Positions 9,442 to 61,288 of a stretch of 64,000 bases of DNA are shown piece after piece. A model generated the notes under the pieces. It did not search any database and was not told the DNA's origin. It saw nothing but the letters and a program-made list of their open reading frames with translations. The translations under genes and the position numbers were made by a program. This DNA comes from Paenibacillus sp. FSL W8-0426 (GTDB taxonomy: Bacteria; Bacillota; Bacilli; Paenibacillales; Paenibacillaceae): NCBI RefSeq assembly GCF_037969725.1, contig NZ_CP150203.1, positions 5,594,001 to 5,658,000 on the forward strand, given 5' to 3'. Each line of letters begins with the position of its first letter. Position 1 is the first letter of the stretch.

Positions 9442-9711
9442 TCACCAGCTCGATTTGGTTACCCCGGGAATTTGCCCTTTGTGGGCAAGTTCGCGAAACG
9501 CAATCCGGGATACTTTGAATTTGCGCAGATATCCTCTCGGTCTGCCGGTAAGCTCGCAGCGGTTTTTCAACCGGGTCGGAGAAGCGTTGCGGGGCAATTT
9601 TTGCAGTGCTTCATAATCTCCTTTTTCCTTCAGCTCCCGGCGGAGTTCAGCGTATTTGGCAACGGTTGCCTGTCGTTTTTGTTCACGGACGATTTTCGAT
9701 TTTTTGGCCAT
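9442..9711 (-). CDS. rpsN: 30S ribosomal protein S14, zinc-independent form
   Basis: An 89-residue S14 of the long, C-minus type. It has the family blocks [19 protein letters not shown] and [16 protein letters not shown] and no paired CxxC zinc ribbon. The start at 9711 has AAAGGAA upstream; the frame is open further but without a ribosome site. In B. subtilis this paralogue replaces zinc-binding S14 when zinc is scarce and is controlled by Zur. Here it lies just downstream of a ZagA-type gene with a Zur box, which fits co-regulation. A structured repeat (9735-9958) fills the gap between them. Confidence 0.93.
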
Positions 9712-9734
9712 GGTTGTACATTCCTTTCTGTTAT

Positions 9735-9958
9735 ATTTAAACCGCACTATCAATCACACAAGGCCAATGCGAGTGCAGTACCTTTTTCCGATCGCCTGTT
9801 ATTCCCAGATTTTTTGTTTCCCCTTTTTTAAGGAGAAAGTCCGGTGATAAGCCTATGCTTCCGATGCAGCTTTCTTTCAGAAAGCTTTTGGCGAACGCTT
9901 CGCTTCTCCAGATTGGTTCTGCCTCTCCGTTGACGTGTGTATGTTTTTTGCGGTTTAT
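9735..9958 (-). ncRNA. Structured intergenic element, copy A (leader of rpsN)
   Basis: About 225 bp, read on the minus strand, starting 10 nt after the zagA stop and ending about 25 nt before the rpsN start. Its core matches copy B at 60125-60356 closely. Shared landmarks are GGAGAAGCGAAGCGTTCGC, AGCTTTCTGAAAGAAAGCT and GCATCGGAAGC. Outer arms AAACCGCA (plus-strand 9949-9956) and TGCGGTTT (9739-9746) pair. A second stem pairs CACAC with GTGTG, and a third CAGAACC with GGTACTG. Copy B has different outer-arm sequences that also pair. The class is unknown to me. Confidence 0.55.
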
Positions 9959-9968
9959 ATGCATGGTT

Positions 9969-11180
9969 TTATTGCAACAGGGGCTGCGCGGCTTCGATCG
10001 GCCATGGCAGCGGATTATCAAACCGTGCCCAGTCCGCCTGCATTTCTTCGTCGTTCAACAAACATTGATCCAACTCTTCTTCGATCTGCGCACGTTCCAT
10101 CTCGATGCCGATCATGACCAGTTCGGTTTGGCGGTCTCCCCACTCGGCATGCCACTGCTCCATGATCTCCGGTTCGGTTTGCAAAATGGCTTCCCTGTCC
10201 GCTTCGGGCAAAGCCGCCGTCCAGTACCCTGCCGGTCCGAATTGAATGGATGGCCCGGCTTGACTGAGGCTTGCGGCGAGATCTCCCTGTGCGGCGAGCC
10301 ACACCAACCCTTTGGCTCGTACCACTTCTTCCGGCCAATGGCTCATGAATGCGGCCAAACGAGCCGGATGGAACGGTTTGCGGCGACGGTACACAAAAGA
10401 GCTGATGCCGTATTCTTCGGTTTCCGGCGTGTGGGATTCCCGTGCCAGCTCCTGGATCCAACCGGCCGACAGGCTTGCTTTTTCAAAATCGAACAAACCG
10501 GTATTCAAAATTTTGGACGGGTCGATCTGCCCCTTCACGGTACGGATCAATTTGGCATTGGGCTGCAATTTGCGGATAACATGTTCCAGCTTCAGCAATT
10601 CGGCCTCGTCCACCAGATCACATTTGTTTAGCAGAAGTACATCGCAAGTCTCGATCTGATCGATCAGCAGATCCACCACATCGCGGGTATCGCCTTCATC
10701 CGTTGCTTGATCCCGGTCCAGCAAGCTTTCGCCCGAGGCAAAGTCATGCCAGAAACGGTGGGCATCCACTACCGTCACCAGACAGTCCAGTCGCGCCAGC
10801 CCTGTCAGGTCGATGCCGGTTTCCTCATCCGCATAAGTGAACGTCTGCGCCACAGGTACCGGTTCGCTAATCCCGGTCGACTCAATCAAGATATAATCGA
10901 AATCACCCTCATTGACCAACTTTTCGATCTCCTGCATCAAATCGTTGCGCAGGGTGCAGCAGATGCAGCCGTTCGACAGCTCAACCAGCTTTTCTTCCGT
11001 ACGGGACAAGGCTGCTTCTCCCTTTACCAGCGCCGCATCGATATTGACCTCGCTCATGTCGTTGACGATGACGGCTACTTTAAGCCCTTGCCGATTATGC
11101 AACACATGATTGAGGACCGTTGTTTTGCCTGATCCGAGGTAACCGCTAAGAACCGTTACCGGGACTTGTTTTTGTACCAT
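9969..11180 (-). CDS. zagA: CobW/COG0523 family zinc-metallochaperone GTPase, ZagA (YciC) type
   Basis: A 403-residue P-loop GTPase. Walker A is GYLGSGKT (13-20). The metal-binding CxCC motif is GCICC (71-75), Walker B-like ILIESTGISEP follows, the guanine-specificity motif is LLLNKCDLV, and the CobW_C domain begins ISSFVYRRRKPFHP. ZagA supplies zinc to folate synthesis in B. subtilis under zinc limitation. The start has AAAGGAG upstream, and a near-perfect Zur box lies about 55 nt further up at 11233-11253. The next gene downstream is the zinc-free S14. Confidence 0.9.
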   Translation of the reverse strand: MVQKQVPVTVLSGYLGSGKTTVLNHVLHNRQGLKVAVIVNDMSEVNIDAALVKGEAALSRTEEKLVELSNGCICCTLRNDLMQEIEKLVNEGDFDYILIESTGISEPVPVAQTFTYADEETGIDLTGLARLDCLVTVVDAHRFWHDFASGESLLDRDQATDEGDTRDVVDLLIDQIETCDVLLLNKCDLVDEAELLKLEHVIRKLQPNAKLIRTVKGQIDPSKILNTGLFDFEKASLSAGWIQELARESHTPETEEYGISSFVYRRRKPFHPARLAAFMSHWPEEVVRAKGLVWLAAQGDLAASLSQAGPSIQFGPAGYWTAALPEADREAILQTEPEIMEQWHAEWGDRQTELVMIGIEMERAQIEEELDQCLLNDEEMQADWARFDNPLPWPIEAAQPLLQ

Positions 11181-25664: not shown

Positions 25665-26537
25665 CTATAACTTCCGCAACAGCTCCCCGAAAGGCTCCGC
25701 AAACGGCGAATGTTGTTCTTTCAATGTCACGACGCTGATCTGTAACGACACACCCGCGACTTCATGCACCTGGATCGGAAACAATTCCTGTTCCCCAACT
25801 TCCTTCTGCACCGTCAATCCGGGCAAAAATGCGATGCCCGCCTTCTGAAGCACAAGCTTCTTCGCGGTTTCCGACTGATCCACATGGTAGGCGATATCCG
25901 GCGGTTGCTCCAGCGAGTCGAATGCCCGGTGAATCCGCAGCCAATCGAGCGATCCACATTCGAAGAACACAAGCAGCTCATCCCGCAGCGCTTCCATGCT
26001 GACGTGTCCTTTTTCAATGAACGGATGTCCTTTGTACACGTAAAGCTGAATGGGATCTTCGTAAAAAGCGACCGTGCGAATGGCCGGATGCATAACCTTG
26101 CGCACAAACGCCAGATCAATTTCCTGGTTCAACAGCTTGGCAACCAGTTGGTCCGTCGTCGCCGTCGTCAATTTGACCGTTACATCCGGATAGGCTTCCC
26201 TGACCTTCGGCAGGAAATCGGGGAGGACATAGGTGGACACCGAGATGGTACTGCCGAGTCGCAGCGCATTCGGCGTCGTGCGCCGCTGCTGCAGCTTCTG
26301 TTTTCCCTTCTGGATCACCTGCAGCACCTGCTGGGCGTACGGCAGGAATTTCCTGCCTTCCTCCGTGAGCACGATCTGTTTGCCAAGCCGGTCGAACAGC
26401 TTGCAGCCGAGCTCGCGTTCCAGCGACTGAATGCGTGCCGTTACGGAAGGCTGGGACAAAAAAAGCACTTCGGCAGCTTTATTGAAGCTTCCGTAATGAT
26501 TGATATATACAAATGCTTCAATGTTCTCAATGTTCAT
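25665..26537 (-). CDS. LysR-type transcriptional regulator of the organosulfur cluster
   Basis: A 290-residue LTTR. The winged HTH occupies residues 1-60 (IEAFVYINHYGSFNKAAEVL, then FLSQPSVTARIQSLERELG). The effector domain runs from about 90 (LRLGSTISVSTYVLPDFLPK). GGAGG lies seven bases before the ATG at 26537. It is embedded on the same strand among the sulfur genes, and its likely targets are those genes. YtlI (AscR) plays that role for the B. subtilis ytm operon, but orthology was not tested. Confidence 0.82.
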   Translation of the reverse strand: MNIENIEAFVYINHYGSFNKAAEVLFLSQPSVTARIQSLERELGCKLFDRLGKQIVLTEEGRKFLPYAQQVLQVIQKGKQKLQQRRTTPNALRLGSTISVSTYVLPDFLPKVREAYPDVTVKLTTATTDQLVAKLLNQEIDLAFVRKVMHPAIRTVAFYEDPIQLYVYKGHPFIEKGHVSMEALRDELLVFFECGSLDWLRIHRAFDSLEQPPDIAYHVDQSETAKKLVLQKAGIAFLPGLTVQKEVGEQELFPIQVHEVAGVSLQISVVTLKEQHSPFAEPFGELLRKL

Positions 26538-26606
26538 AAGCGCCTCCGTATCCTTATCCATTGACGATAACGTCAATATTGATTTAACCCATTAATTTAC
26601 TTGGTT

Positions 26607-27155
26607 TTAGGAGATCGTAATGCTCTCCCTGCTTAATGTCAATACCAATTCTTCCAAAGCGCGATCCAAACGTGCGGCGATCTCCGCCGAGAGGGCATAG
26701 GTCCCGTCTTCCAGACGTTCAATGCCCTGATCCACGGCATATACGCCGCCAAGGATATGTCTTCCGCCGAGGGCGGCTAACACAGGTTTCAGCGCGTAAT
26801 CGATCGCCAGCAAATGCGCAATGGAACCGCCGATGACGAGCGGAAGCGCAAGCTTTCCTTTCAATCCCTCCTGCGGGATCAGATCCAGAAACAACTTCAG
26901 TACGCCGGAATAGGCAGCTTTGTATACCGGGGTGGACACAATCACCGCATCCGCTGCCTGCACAAGCGCAAGCGCATCCTGAATGGCAGGACTGTCGAAT
27001 TTGGCCTGAACCACATCTTCTGCCGGCAGATCGGCGACATGAATAATATTTACCGTAGTGCCTGCTTCACCCAATTTTCCTGCACTGTAATCGATCAGTC
27101 CTGTCAGGCGGGAACGCTTGGATGGCGATCCCGCGATAATTACGACGTTTGACAT
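26607..27155 (-). CDS. NADPH-dependent FMN reductase, SsuE-like
   Basis: A 182-residue flavodoxin-fold reductase. The FMN phosphate loop is AGSPSKRSRLTG near residue 8, followed by STPVYKAAYSGVLKLFLDLIP, the hallmark of SsuE. The likely role is to supply FMNH2 to the two flavin monooxygenases of the cluster. The ATG at 27155 has GGAGGG upstream. Confidence 0.85.
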   Translation of the reverse strand: MSNVVIIAGSPSKRSRLTGLIDYSAGKLGEAGTTVNIIHVADLPAEDVVQAKFDSPAIQDALALVQAADAVIVSTPVYKAAYSGVLKLFLDLIPQEGLKGKLALPLVIGGSIAHLLAIDYALKPVLAALGGRHILGGVYAVDQGIERLEDGTYALSAEIAARLDRALEELVLTLSRESITIS

Positions 27156-59236: not shown

Positions 59237-59695
59237 TTACGAGATCATGACTTGAATATCCATCTCACCGATACCGTCCATCATAAGCGGTATGCATAGT
59301 GCTTTCGAGGCATTGAACTCCGTCAGATGTTCCGACTTCATGACTTGTGGAGGCGTAATGTCTACAACTACGCCCTGGCTGGATAGTATGGTGCTTGCAT
59401 TCCCGCTGATCATGTTGCCAAGCTCCGAAATGGCGCTTTTGCTCATGTCATCCATCTCCGTAATCACAAAACCGCCCATCATGGCAGAAACGATTTTGAG
59501 CGCAACCTGCTCCTGAATGCCAAATACGATGTTTCCGCTCAGCTGCCCTGTCATGCCGATCACGATCCAAACATGGTCAGCAATGTACTCCACGTTCTTC
59601 ACGCCCAGATTCCCGGTGGAAGGTGAAACCTGAATAAGTTGCTCAAATACGTTTCGCGCGGATTCCAGGAAAGGATTAATCACTTCCGCTTTCAC
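59237..59695 (-). CDS. cheX: CheX-type chemotaxis phosphatase (CheY-P phosphatase family)
   Basis: A 152-residue CheC/CheX/FliY-family protein. The catalytic E-x-x-N of the phosphatase is in ISELGNMISGNAS (E91, N94). INPFLESARNVFEQLIQV and SGNIVFGI support CheX. It would dephosphorylate CheY-P and act in chemotactic adaptation. It is a solitary gene here, with no che operon adjacent. GGGGG lies upstream of the ATG. Confidence 0.88.
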   Translation of the reverse strand: MKAEVINPFLESARNVFEQLIQVSPSTGNLGVKNVEYIADHVWIVIGMTGQLSGNIVFGIQEQVALKIVSAMMGGFVITEMDDMSKSAISELGNMISGNASTILSSQGVVVDITPPQVMKSEHLTEFNASKALCIPLMMDGIGEMDIQVMIS

Positions 59696-60385
59696 TGTTT
59701 AATGTCCCCCTTACACTGGGTTATGGGTCACACACCAAAAGTCCCATTTTCAATAATTTCATTATACTTTATCACGTCCAAGAATTCATCATGAATTCGG
59801 CAAGGCATGTGCTCTATAATTTATCGTCATTGATAGATCAAATGTTTATAGCTGTTATTGGCGAATTCTCACAGCTTTTCTCCCCTGCCGGGCAAGAATT
59901 GGCGATTCCAGGGGGTAGAACTTTGGTTTTAGGACTATTTTACCTATATTTCGATGAGCTTCGGCGGGGAAAGAGAAAAATCATGTCCAGTGATATATGT
60001 ACCAACCCGTTGTACAGATTGTGCAAAAGTTGCTTCCATCTGCTTCATTGCCGTGCTGCCCCGTTTCCCATATAATTTAAAGTAACAGAACGATGACATG
60101 TTTGCGGGATTTTTTTACTCCCCCCTATATAAGTTGAACTATATATTTACACAACAACGGAGAGGACAGAACAAATCTGGAGAAGCGAAGCGTTCGCTTA
60201 AAGCTTTCTGAAAGAAAGCTGCATCGGAAGCGTAGGCTTATCCCCGGATTTCCCTCTTTGAGACAAAATTCAAAAAAATCTGGGGATAACAGCGATCGGA
60301 AGATGGTTCTGACCGCGCAGTGGTCCCGTGTAAAATCTTTTATTCAACTTATATAGTTGACAAGTTGATCGCAAGGAGGCCAACC
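59696..60385. other. 690-bp gap carrying structured element copy B
   Basis: Between cheX and the LysR gene. The right part is the repeat element (60125-60356). The left part has a plus frame (59791-60075) with no ribosome site or family match. A TATAAT at 60071 could be a promoter -10 for the transcript that includes the element and lysR. Confidence 0.5.
60125..60356 (+). ncRNA. Structured intergenic element, copy B (leader of lysR-type gene)
   Basis: 232 bp. Outer arms CTATATAAGTTGAA (60125-60138) and TTCAACTTATATAG (60343-60356) are a perfect 14-bp inverted pair. Inside are TTTACAC (60146-60152) with GTGTAAA (60328-60334), CAGAAC (60167-60172) with GTTCTG (60306-60311), hairpins at 60183-60199 and 60202-60220, and TTATCCCC (60238-60245) with GGGGATAA (60282-60289). 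The middle part matches copy A at 9735-9958 closely. The outer arms do not match yet also pair in copy A. It ends 29 nt before the LysR start. Confidence 0.6.
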
Positions 60386-61288
60386 ATGAATATCAGCCAA
60401 CTGGAAACGCTGATTACGATTTCCAAAACGATGAGCTTCCGCAAGGCAGGCGAGCTTTTGAATCTGACTCAACCTGCCGTTTCCGCCCAGATCAAAAGTC
60501 TGGAGGACGAATTCAACACCGTGCTCGTGGATCGCAATCAGCCCGTTACCCTCACGGACCGGGGGAAAGTATTTTTGGAGCATGCAGAGCGCATGCTGGA
60601 TATCGTGGATGAGCTGAAGCAAAAACTCTCGGATCTGGATGAGACCCCTCAAGGACATATCGTATTAGGGACAACCACTTCCATTGCCATTCAGATTTTG
60701 CCGCGCGTGCTGTCCTATTTTCAGGATCAATTTCCCTTGATCAAGACGAGCATTCAATCCATGCCCTCCTCGCAAATTTATACGCTGGTGGAGAGCGGGT
60801 TAATCGATATCGGCATCGGTTATCTGACGGAGCGCAATCCAAACCTGAATACGTCCGTGTTGTATTATGATACGTTTGAACTCATTGTTTCTCCTGCCCA
60901 TCCTTTGGCCAAACTAAAACATGCTTCAGTGGACGTACTGCGCGATATCCCGCTGATCCTGCTGTCGCCGGACACGGTTGGCCGCAAGTTTACGGAAGGC
61001 ATTCTCAAAAAACACGGCATCGAACCGAATGTGGTCATGGAGCTGTCCAGCAGCGAGGAAATCAAAAGGATGGTTGAAATCAACCTCGGAGCCTCGATCA
61101 TTTCCAAGCAGTCGGTCGCGCATGAACTCCGGCAAGGGACGCTGAAAATGATCCCGCTCGGCGAGCTTGAAGTCAGCCATCCTGTGGGCGTCATTTACAA
61201 AGCAAGCCGTTATCTCAACTCGGCCATGCAGCAGTTTTTGAGCGACCTCAAAGGCATGCCTGAAACGCAGTTCATCAGTTCGGAATAA
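60386..61288 (+). CDS. LysR-type transcriptional regulator
   Basis: A 300-residue LTTR. The HTH is at 1-60 (LETLITISKTMSFRKAGELL, LTQPAVSAQIKSLEDEF), then the effector domain (HIVLGTTTSIAIQILPRVLSYF, DIGIGYLTERN). The start at 60386 has AAGGAGG upstream; the open frame extends back through the repeat element but has no site. The hisJ-like gene follows at 30 nt on the same strand. Its ligand and target genes are not evident. Confidence 0.87.
   Translation: MNISQLETLITISKTMSFRKAGELLNLTQPAVSAQIKSLEDEFNTVLVDRNQPVTLTDRGKVFLEHAERMLDIVDELKQKLSDLDETPQGHIVLGTTTSIAIQILPRVLSYFQDQFPLIKTSIQSMPSSQIYTLVESGLIDIGIGYLTERNPNLNTSVLYYDTFELIVSPAHPLAKLKHASVDVLRDIPLILLSPDTVGRKFTEGILKKHGIEPNVVMELSSSEEIKRMVEINLGASIISKQSVAHELRQGTLKMIPLGELEVSHPVGVIYKASRYLNSAMQQFLSDLKGMPETQFISSE

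Follow-up and report, generated by a model that had tools for sequence, protein, structure and literature searches.

In the Bacillus cereus group, bcr1 to bcr3 have been described as MITE-like repeats that often lie in untranslated regions (UTRs) or intergenic parts of operons, and 40 to 51% of bcr copies belonged to an mRNA and bcr10 and bcr18 had a conserved RNA structure (PMC3446304). Furthermore, a second source describes the transcribed MITEs NEMIS/Correia, RUP, and ERIC as short, non-coding, bearing terminal inverted repeats (TIRs), and often gene-adjacent, and states that MITEs stabilise or destabilise mRNAs by folding (PMC3733652). In Bacillus subtilis, RNase J1 has been implicated in the processing of the polycistronic ilv-leu mRNA (PMC3997798). 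Some bacterial MITEs are transcribed, and their RNA may or may not exceed a folded inverted repeat. In NEMIS/Correia, RUP, and ERIC, the structure is the inverted repeat itself.

Here, we examined a repeat that occurs twice in the window, by which we mean the whole stretch of 64,000 nucleotides of Paenibacillus DNA that was analysed. We hold with moderate confidence that its core is a structured RNA that spans an order, has no match in Rfam 15, is made in mRNAs, and acts in cis, while also being transposon cargo. Like bcr1 to bcr3 among the interspersed repeats bcr1 to bcr18, the elements are MITE-like and lie mostly in intergenic sites, and bcr10 and bcr18 likewise have a conserved RNA structure; the elements are set apart by a core that is order-wide, compensatory, conserved in place, and found with and without TIRs. 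Like NEMIS/Correia, RUP, and ERIC, the elements are short, non-coding, TIR-bearing, and often beside genes. Their TATA-rich ends and TA target resemble those of Correia elements. Unlike all three, they hold a separate conserved core that occurs with or without TIRs. The core resembles order-level bacterial RNA classes of the Rfam type in its covarying stems and in having been found by comparative genomics; however, it matches no Rfam 15 family, is tied to no single gene family, and is high-copy and mobile in the window's genus. The likeness to the processed B. subtilis ilv-leu transcript is one resident copy at ilvC-leuA; the core had no match outside the window's family in our class sample, and a processing role here is putative. 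Because the core occurs with and without the ends, covaries order-wide, and is kept at core-metabolism junctions, ends and core are separable, which would allow a direct test of functional RNA as a cause of transposon success. The repeat also adds an RNA class without an Rfam match that exceeds 100 copies in a single genome.

The earlier note had described two copies with sequences, coordinates, and pairings, and all of these were as described when the sequence was re-read. The features of the two copies and of their neighbours are as follows.

60126..60355, plus strand: copy A, whole MITE-like element, long form; termini taken from 77 full copies and from empty sites at other loci
60126-60127 and 60354-60355, plus strand: probable TA target duplication of copy A, judged from other loci
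60126..60139, plus strand: copy A left terminal inverted repeat, subfamily A (outer arm 1)
60342..60355, plus strand: copy A right terminal inverted repeat, subfamily A (outer arm 2)
60147..60334, plus strand: copy A structured RNA core, spanning positions 1-150 of model R1 together with the long-form insertion (cmsearch E 2.8e-22)
60177..60197, plus strand: most conserved motif of copy A, with CTGGAGA, the mini-hairpin GC-GAA-GC (P3a), and then the P3 5' strand CGTTCGC
60200..60237, plus strand: copy A 38-nt insertion hairpin, which splits long (~230 bp) from short (~190 bp) forms
60238..60289, plus strand: copy A P4 stem with apical hairpin, in which TTATCCCCGGATTT pairs with AAATCTGGGGATAA
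60290..60302, plus strand: copy A CAGCGATCGGAAG, the P3 3' strand and conserved junction strand
60386..61288, plus strand: LysR-family regulator gene, start codon 30 nt past copy A (Pfam PF00126, PF03466)
59237..59695, minus strand: CheX-like gene, divergent, on the opposite flank of copy A, where it is the nearest gene with Pfam support (Pfam PF13690)
9734..9960, minus strand: copy B, whole MITE-like element, long form, with degenerate TIR-B ends
9753..9940, minus strand: copy B structured RNA core (cmsearch E 1e-16)
9949..9956, minus strand: copy B left TIR-B arm AAACCGCA, which pairs with TGCGGTTT
9739..9746, minus strand: copy B right TIR-B arm TGCGGTTT
9851..9888, minus strand: copy B 38-nt long-form insertion hairpin
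9969..11180, minus strand: CobW-type GTPase gene, upstream of copy B and co-directional (Pfam PF02492, PF07683)
9442..9711, minus strand: ribosomal protein S14 gene, downstream of copy B and co-directional (Pfam PF00253)

The outer arms of copy A, CTATATAAGTTGAA (60125-60138) and TTCAACTTATATAG (60343-60356), are followed inward by a stem in which TTTACAC (60146-60152) pairs with GTGTAAA (60328-60334) and by a second of CAGAAC (60167-60172) with GTTCTG (60306-60311). In copy B, CAGAACC (9915-9921) faces GGTACTG (9776-9782) with one mismatch. Copy B sits between two genes of its own direction, and this pairing of a CobW-type GTPase with S14 (9442-11180) may recall zinc-responsive operons. Single-strand folding against shuffles gave z scores of -5.8 for copy A and -5.3 for copy B, with 0/200 shuffles reaching either, a result that long inverted repeats alone would also favour. 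The covariance model R1 found both copies in the window, plus two more lines at an E of about 0.05.

In this genome, with 150 candidates scored, R1 gives at least 132 matches (E <= 0.001), two of which lie in the window. A 26-base core pattern allowing up to 3 mismatches gave 122 matches genome-wide and none when reversed. The ends belong to two TIR subfamilies, A (TATARGTTGAAC) and B (TATAAACCGCA), each conserved within its subfamily. With up to 3 mismatches allowed in recognition, 99 of the 132 copies carry a TIR at both ends (BB 65, AA 30, AB 3, BA 1), 16 at one end, and 17 at neither; the 77 full copies comprise 48 long forms, 27 short forms, and 2 that are more deleted. The earlier note had taken outer arms that were changed yet still paired as a sign of selection on RNA structure, and had named many copies without covariation, or arms identical between copies as in a simple MITE, as evidence to the contrary. 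For the outer arms, many copies with arms alike were indeed found: these arms are the TIRs of two MITE subfamilies, and they looked unrelated in the window since it holds one copy of each, copy A of subfamily A and copy B of subfamily B. As a separate observation, 4 of the 99 two-TIR copies have mixed ends (A-B or B-A; for example, 1326678-1326903 in this genome), so ends may be exchanged.

Mobility is seen in empty sites. Thirteen of 34 prepared sites were compared in relatives; in the same species, 12 were filled (two separated pieces) and 1, at 1025149, was empty (contiguous match). Site 2516357 was empty in all 4 other species searched. At site 1295113, where the left flank was comparable over only ~10 nt, the copy was absent in 2 of 4 other species and a short-form copy stood at the same place in the other 2. 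The fetched site 826934, whose left flank had no match, was left out of this comparison. The three sites with an empty counterpart point to duplication of a TA target. None of the three holds an arm-length palindrome, so the empty sites seen lend no support to insertion into palindromic targets, which the earlier note had offered as its alternative. Judged from sequence, the elements would be MITEs: they are short and non-coding, and they have common TIRs, a putative target duplication, and empty sites. No transposase with the same TIRs was seen among the 8 TIR loci read, 5 of which lack the core. Two of the 13 sites, 1063633 and 1247796, hold the short form here and the long form in the other same-species strain, with the rest nearly identical. 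The short form at 1247796 moreover contains core letters absent from the long form, so this is not a simple deletion; could it reflect local conversion between copies?

Inside the ends, a core of ~150 nt is a conserved structure with compensatory changes beyond chance. In a model-fitted alignment of 93 matches (92 distinct rows, mostly cross-genus, including 4 partial opposite-strand matches), which leans to the model, 95.5% of cells pair over 35 pairs and 32/35 pairs have double-sided changes. There were 845 double-change cells versus 235 in shuffles, 0/500 shuffles reached any of the measures, and slid versions of the structure dropped to 33-47% paired. A structure-blind MAFFT alignment of 36 sequences from several genera still had double changes in 22/25 pairs, and 14 copies had them in 20/36 pairs. 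Copies without TIRs in the same genome retain GGAGAAGCGAAGCG and AACAGCGATCGGAAG, slightly altered, amid quite different stems. Covariation is informative in the inner stems of copies that lack TIRs or come from other genera, not in the outer arms. The earlier claim of a conserved structure with covarying stems stands for the inner core and falls for the outer arms, which are TIRs.

In the predicted fold, P1 and P2 make up a stalk, and the CTGGAGA strand runs into the mini-hairpin P3a. P3 pairs CGNUCGC with GCGAUCG and is followed by P4 with a variable apical hairpin, and GGAAG leads back to P2; long forms insert a 38-nt hairpin between P3 and P4. The pairs and loop of P3a vary together (GC-GAA-GC, AC-GAA-GU, AC-GUA-GU, GC-GAUA-GC, and GC-GCAA-GC), with a loop of GNA or GNNA; P3a lay outside the model, the search pattern failed to fit 6/89 rows, and the mini-hairpin is absent from a few of the rows that did fit. 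The strongly conserved junction strands CTGGAGA and GATCGGAAG adjoin short helices. Such conservation points to catalysis or a binding partner, neither of which a simple hairpin would require.

A covariance-model search beyond the window, which the earlier note had proposed, bore out the core: it occurs in most of the family and order genomes sampled, with pairs changed on both sides. Under strict filters, with up to 10 candidates per genome and overlapping samples, it was present in 248/295 family genomes (13/19 genera), in 239/296 order genomes (32/48 genera in five families, one of them by a single match at E 1.4e-5), and in 27/299 class genomes, all 27 from the window's family; the order was taken as Paenibacillales from named relatives. 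Plasmids gave 2 distant matches, both in Paenibacillus cellulosilyticus, and the phage sequences searched gave no core match. At the gathering score, Rfam 15 had 0 matches in the window and 0 in 7 loci; at E up to 5, 8 loci gave 6 weak matches, all outside the core and one touching its edge. The earlier note had not recognised the class, and in these searches the core likewise matches no Rfam 15 family. In the literature searched, we found no description of this repeat or RNA, and an earlier one is possible in the survey of Weinberg 2017, which reportedly covers 224 RNAs.

Some copies persist in place. In one low-copy genus, 16/17 genomes have a copy at citZ-icd (13), ilvC-leuA (15), or both (12), on the strand of both flanking genes and ending ~40-50 nt before a start codon. 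At these resident copies the flanks vary with gaps and the core stays, with 5/30 pairs doubly changed at citZ-icd (11/13 sequences) and 9/41 at ilvC-leuA (13/15 sequences). ilvC is followed by a strong hairpin, as expected at a processed junction. Two further features were observed at citZ-icd: loci there carry another conserved element beyond citZ, in which the long hairpin GTGCGGG..GGTACC/GTACCGC..CCCGTCAC leads into TTTTTGTGTG, and in many of them a GACGAG..CTCGT hairpin precedes the RNA.

Outside the window's genome, 55 loci were chosen (all 30 of one set and 25 of the 30 in another) and 54 could be scored, leaving out the low-copy genus above; gene directions follow a longest-ORF rule, not annotation. 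The downstream gene was on the same strand as the copy in 37 and on the opposite strand in 17 (p 0.009), and both neighbours were on the same strand in 27, both opposite in 10, and mixed in 17 (p 0.008), with p values that are optimistic since some loci are orthologous or tandem. The 115 copies with one or two TIRs in this genome were flanked ++ in 48, -- in 14, +- in 24, and -+ in 22, with 7 undecided. Copies tend to run with the genes but do not do so strictly; 10/54 external copies and 14/115 TIR-bearing copies are antisense to both neighbours. Junctions read by eye included jag-mnmE, yhbY-nadD, rplI-dnaB, and aroE-yhbY, and an arrangement of dgkA, four copies, cdd, and era is supported by Pfam. 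A fixed yhbY-nadD element was considered and dropped: only 2/80 named yhbY regions carry a copy, so copies there are sporadic and speak against a fixed operon role. The neighbours share no common function (LysR, S14, and cytidine deaminase by Pfam; icd, leuA, nadD, mnmE, and dnaB by eye), in contrast to the consistent tie to one gene family expected of a riboswitch.

Wobble pairs were compared between the strands. In the 89 model-aligned rows, from which the 4 partial opposite-strand rows were excluded, non-Watson-Crick cells were GU in 126, AC in 35, and other in 104. By pair, GU was ahead in 24 and AC in 7 of 31 informative pairs (p 0.003), and without the three richest pairs GU led by 84 to 35, in an alignment that somewhat favours GU. 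The blind alignment gave GU 28 and AC 12 (p 0.017) but by pair 9 to 6 (p 0.61), which does not bear out that lead. Across genera, these counts lend moderate support to the strand read in the gene direction as the one that folds. When the 77 full TIR copies in this genome were aligned without structure, their core had GU 94, AC 34, and other 117; one pair gives 58 of the 94, and setting it aside leaves 36 to 33. TIR stems in 57 of the 77 copies (20 were dropped for >5 mismatches) had GU 26, AC 22, and other 53. The mobile copies of this genome show no sign of strand-specific selection and may drift after insertion. The idea that the core is strand-selected unlike the TIRs of the same mobile copies was dropped, as its GU excess was traced to that one pair.

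If the origin is near coordinate 0 and the terminus half-way, as was assumed, 90/115 TIR-bearing copies point along replication (p 8e-10), as do 37/46 of those whose neighbours disagree in direction; the 17 TIR-less copies are split 9 to 8. The bias can be read as insertion coupled to replication or as selection against antisense copies.

Our best reading is a new mRNA-leader or intercistronic RNA that is also transposon cargo. The RNA would be made as part of mRNAs. It lies mostly in intergenic sites, in many cases tens of nt ahead of a start codon, and certain copies are resident, with compensatory changes arising in place. Non-autonomous, TA-inserting elements with two TIR types carry the same core as cargo in the window's genus and have taken it to >100 sites. 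Its molecular function would most likely be that of a leader or a processing/stability element acting in cis: the core could shield the downstream transcript from 5' decay or mark an intercistronic cleavage point. With either role, insertions into operons could be tolerated, and carriage by transposons would be favoured as a result. The replication-direction bias (90/115) speaks against an mRNA role, which does not explain it.

That bias is what a single-stranded DNA would account for, folded in transposition or replication and never working as RNA, and mobile copies lack a clear GU preference. We consider this DNA reading improbable, however, since TIR-less resident copies conserve the core in place and split 9 to 8 in orientation (n = 17), since the core has two end types here and other settings elsewhere, and since GU is ahead in 24/31 pairs across genera. 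The indifference of the mobile copies to strand, minus the one pair, is expected of drift after insertion into a plain MITE, in which only the TIRs matter and the inside is unconstrained filler, alike from a recent common source. TIRs, TA duplication, and copy number fit such an element, and it may be a true account of individual mobile copies. For the family as a whole it is very hard to believe: the core persists amid wholly different stems in TIR-less copies and in other families and genera, one genus retains it at two operon junctions where pairs have changed in a compensatory way, and the model-fitted covariation (32/35 pairs, 0/500 shuffles) speaks against such an element.

The remaining rivals grant the RNA and differ in what it does. 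Four tandem copies stand at each of two unrelated loci, one in this genome (571942-572751) and one at L308 (G422:C15, ~26190-26890), with the same 221-bp period, different spacers, and a hairpin in every spacer. In the window's genome, the array runs antisense to the genes beside it. Such arrays would suit a family of trans-acting small RNA genes, transcribed alone from tandem or single copies and acting elsewhere; we think this unlikely, given that the citZ-icd and ilvC-leuA copies end ~40-50 nt before a same-strand start codon. A new self-cleaving ribozyme that separates operon transcripts by cleavage between genes would fit the intergenic position and the strong conservation of CTGGAGA and GATCGGAAG, the junction strands next to short helices, and some known ribozymes are likewise spread by mobile elements. 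Yet no Rfam family, ribozymes included, was matched and no cleavage site is indicated, which leaves a ribozyme quite unlikely. A further, tentative possibility, which we doubt but do take seriously, is that a catalytic or protein-binding RNA module is itself a selfish cargo. Unrelated transposons would have taken it up on several occasions, since it renders their insertions between co-transcribed genes harmless, and it would have been domesticated repeatedly at operon junctions, citZ-icd and ilvC-leuA among them. Its carriers would be the TA-target A and B elements, elements beside an IS1182-type transposase in a Cohnella-like genus, and elements with other ends in a second family.

In that Cohnella-like genus, so called because locus L182 reads like L252 (Cohnella sp. 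WQ 127256), nine copies were aligned; a hairpin downstream is common to most of them and a stretch upstream to several, and a DUF772 transposase, of the IS1182 type, is found next to one. Reading by eye in the second family showed a few copies flanked by AAGTCCGG and CCGGACTT or by variants of these. A T-box was considered from GGGTGGTACC, which adjoins the Cohnella-type copies, and was set aside as Rfam gave no match. Loci L176, L184, L186, L193, and L189 of the Cohnella-like genus have an upstream stretch like GGGTGGTACCTCC and an inverted repeat like AAACCGTTC/GAACGGTTT, which together have the look of a T-box tail, again with no Rfam match. Elsewhere, two matches lie 443 bp apart at G205:C30, and in this genome a TIR-B copy is nested within a divergent copy of the same RNA family (6307756-6308095).
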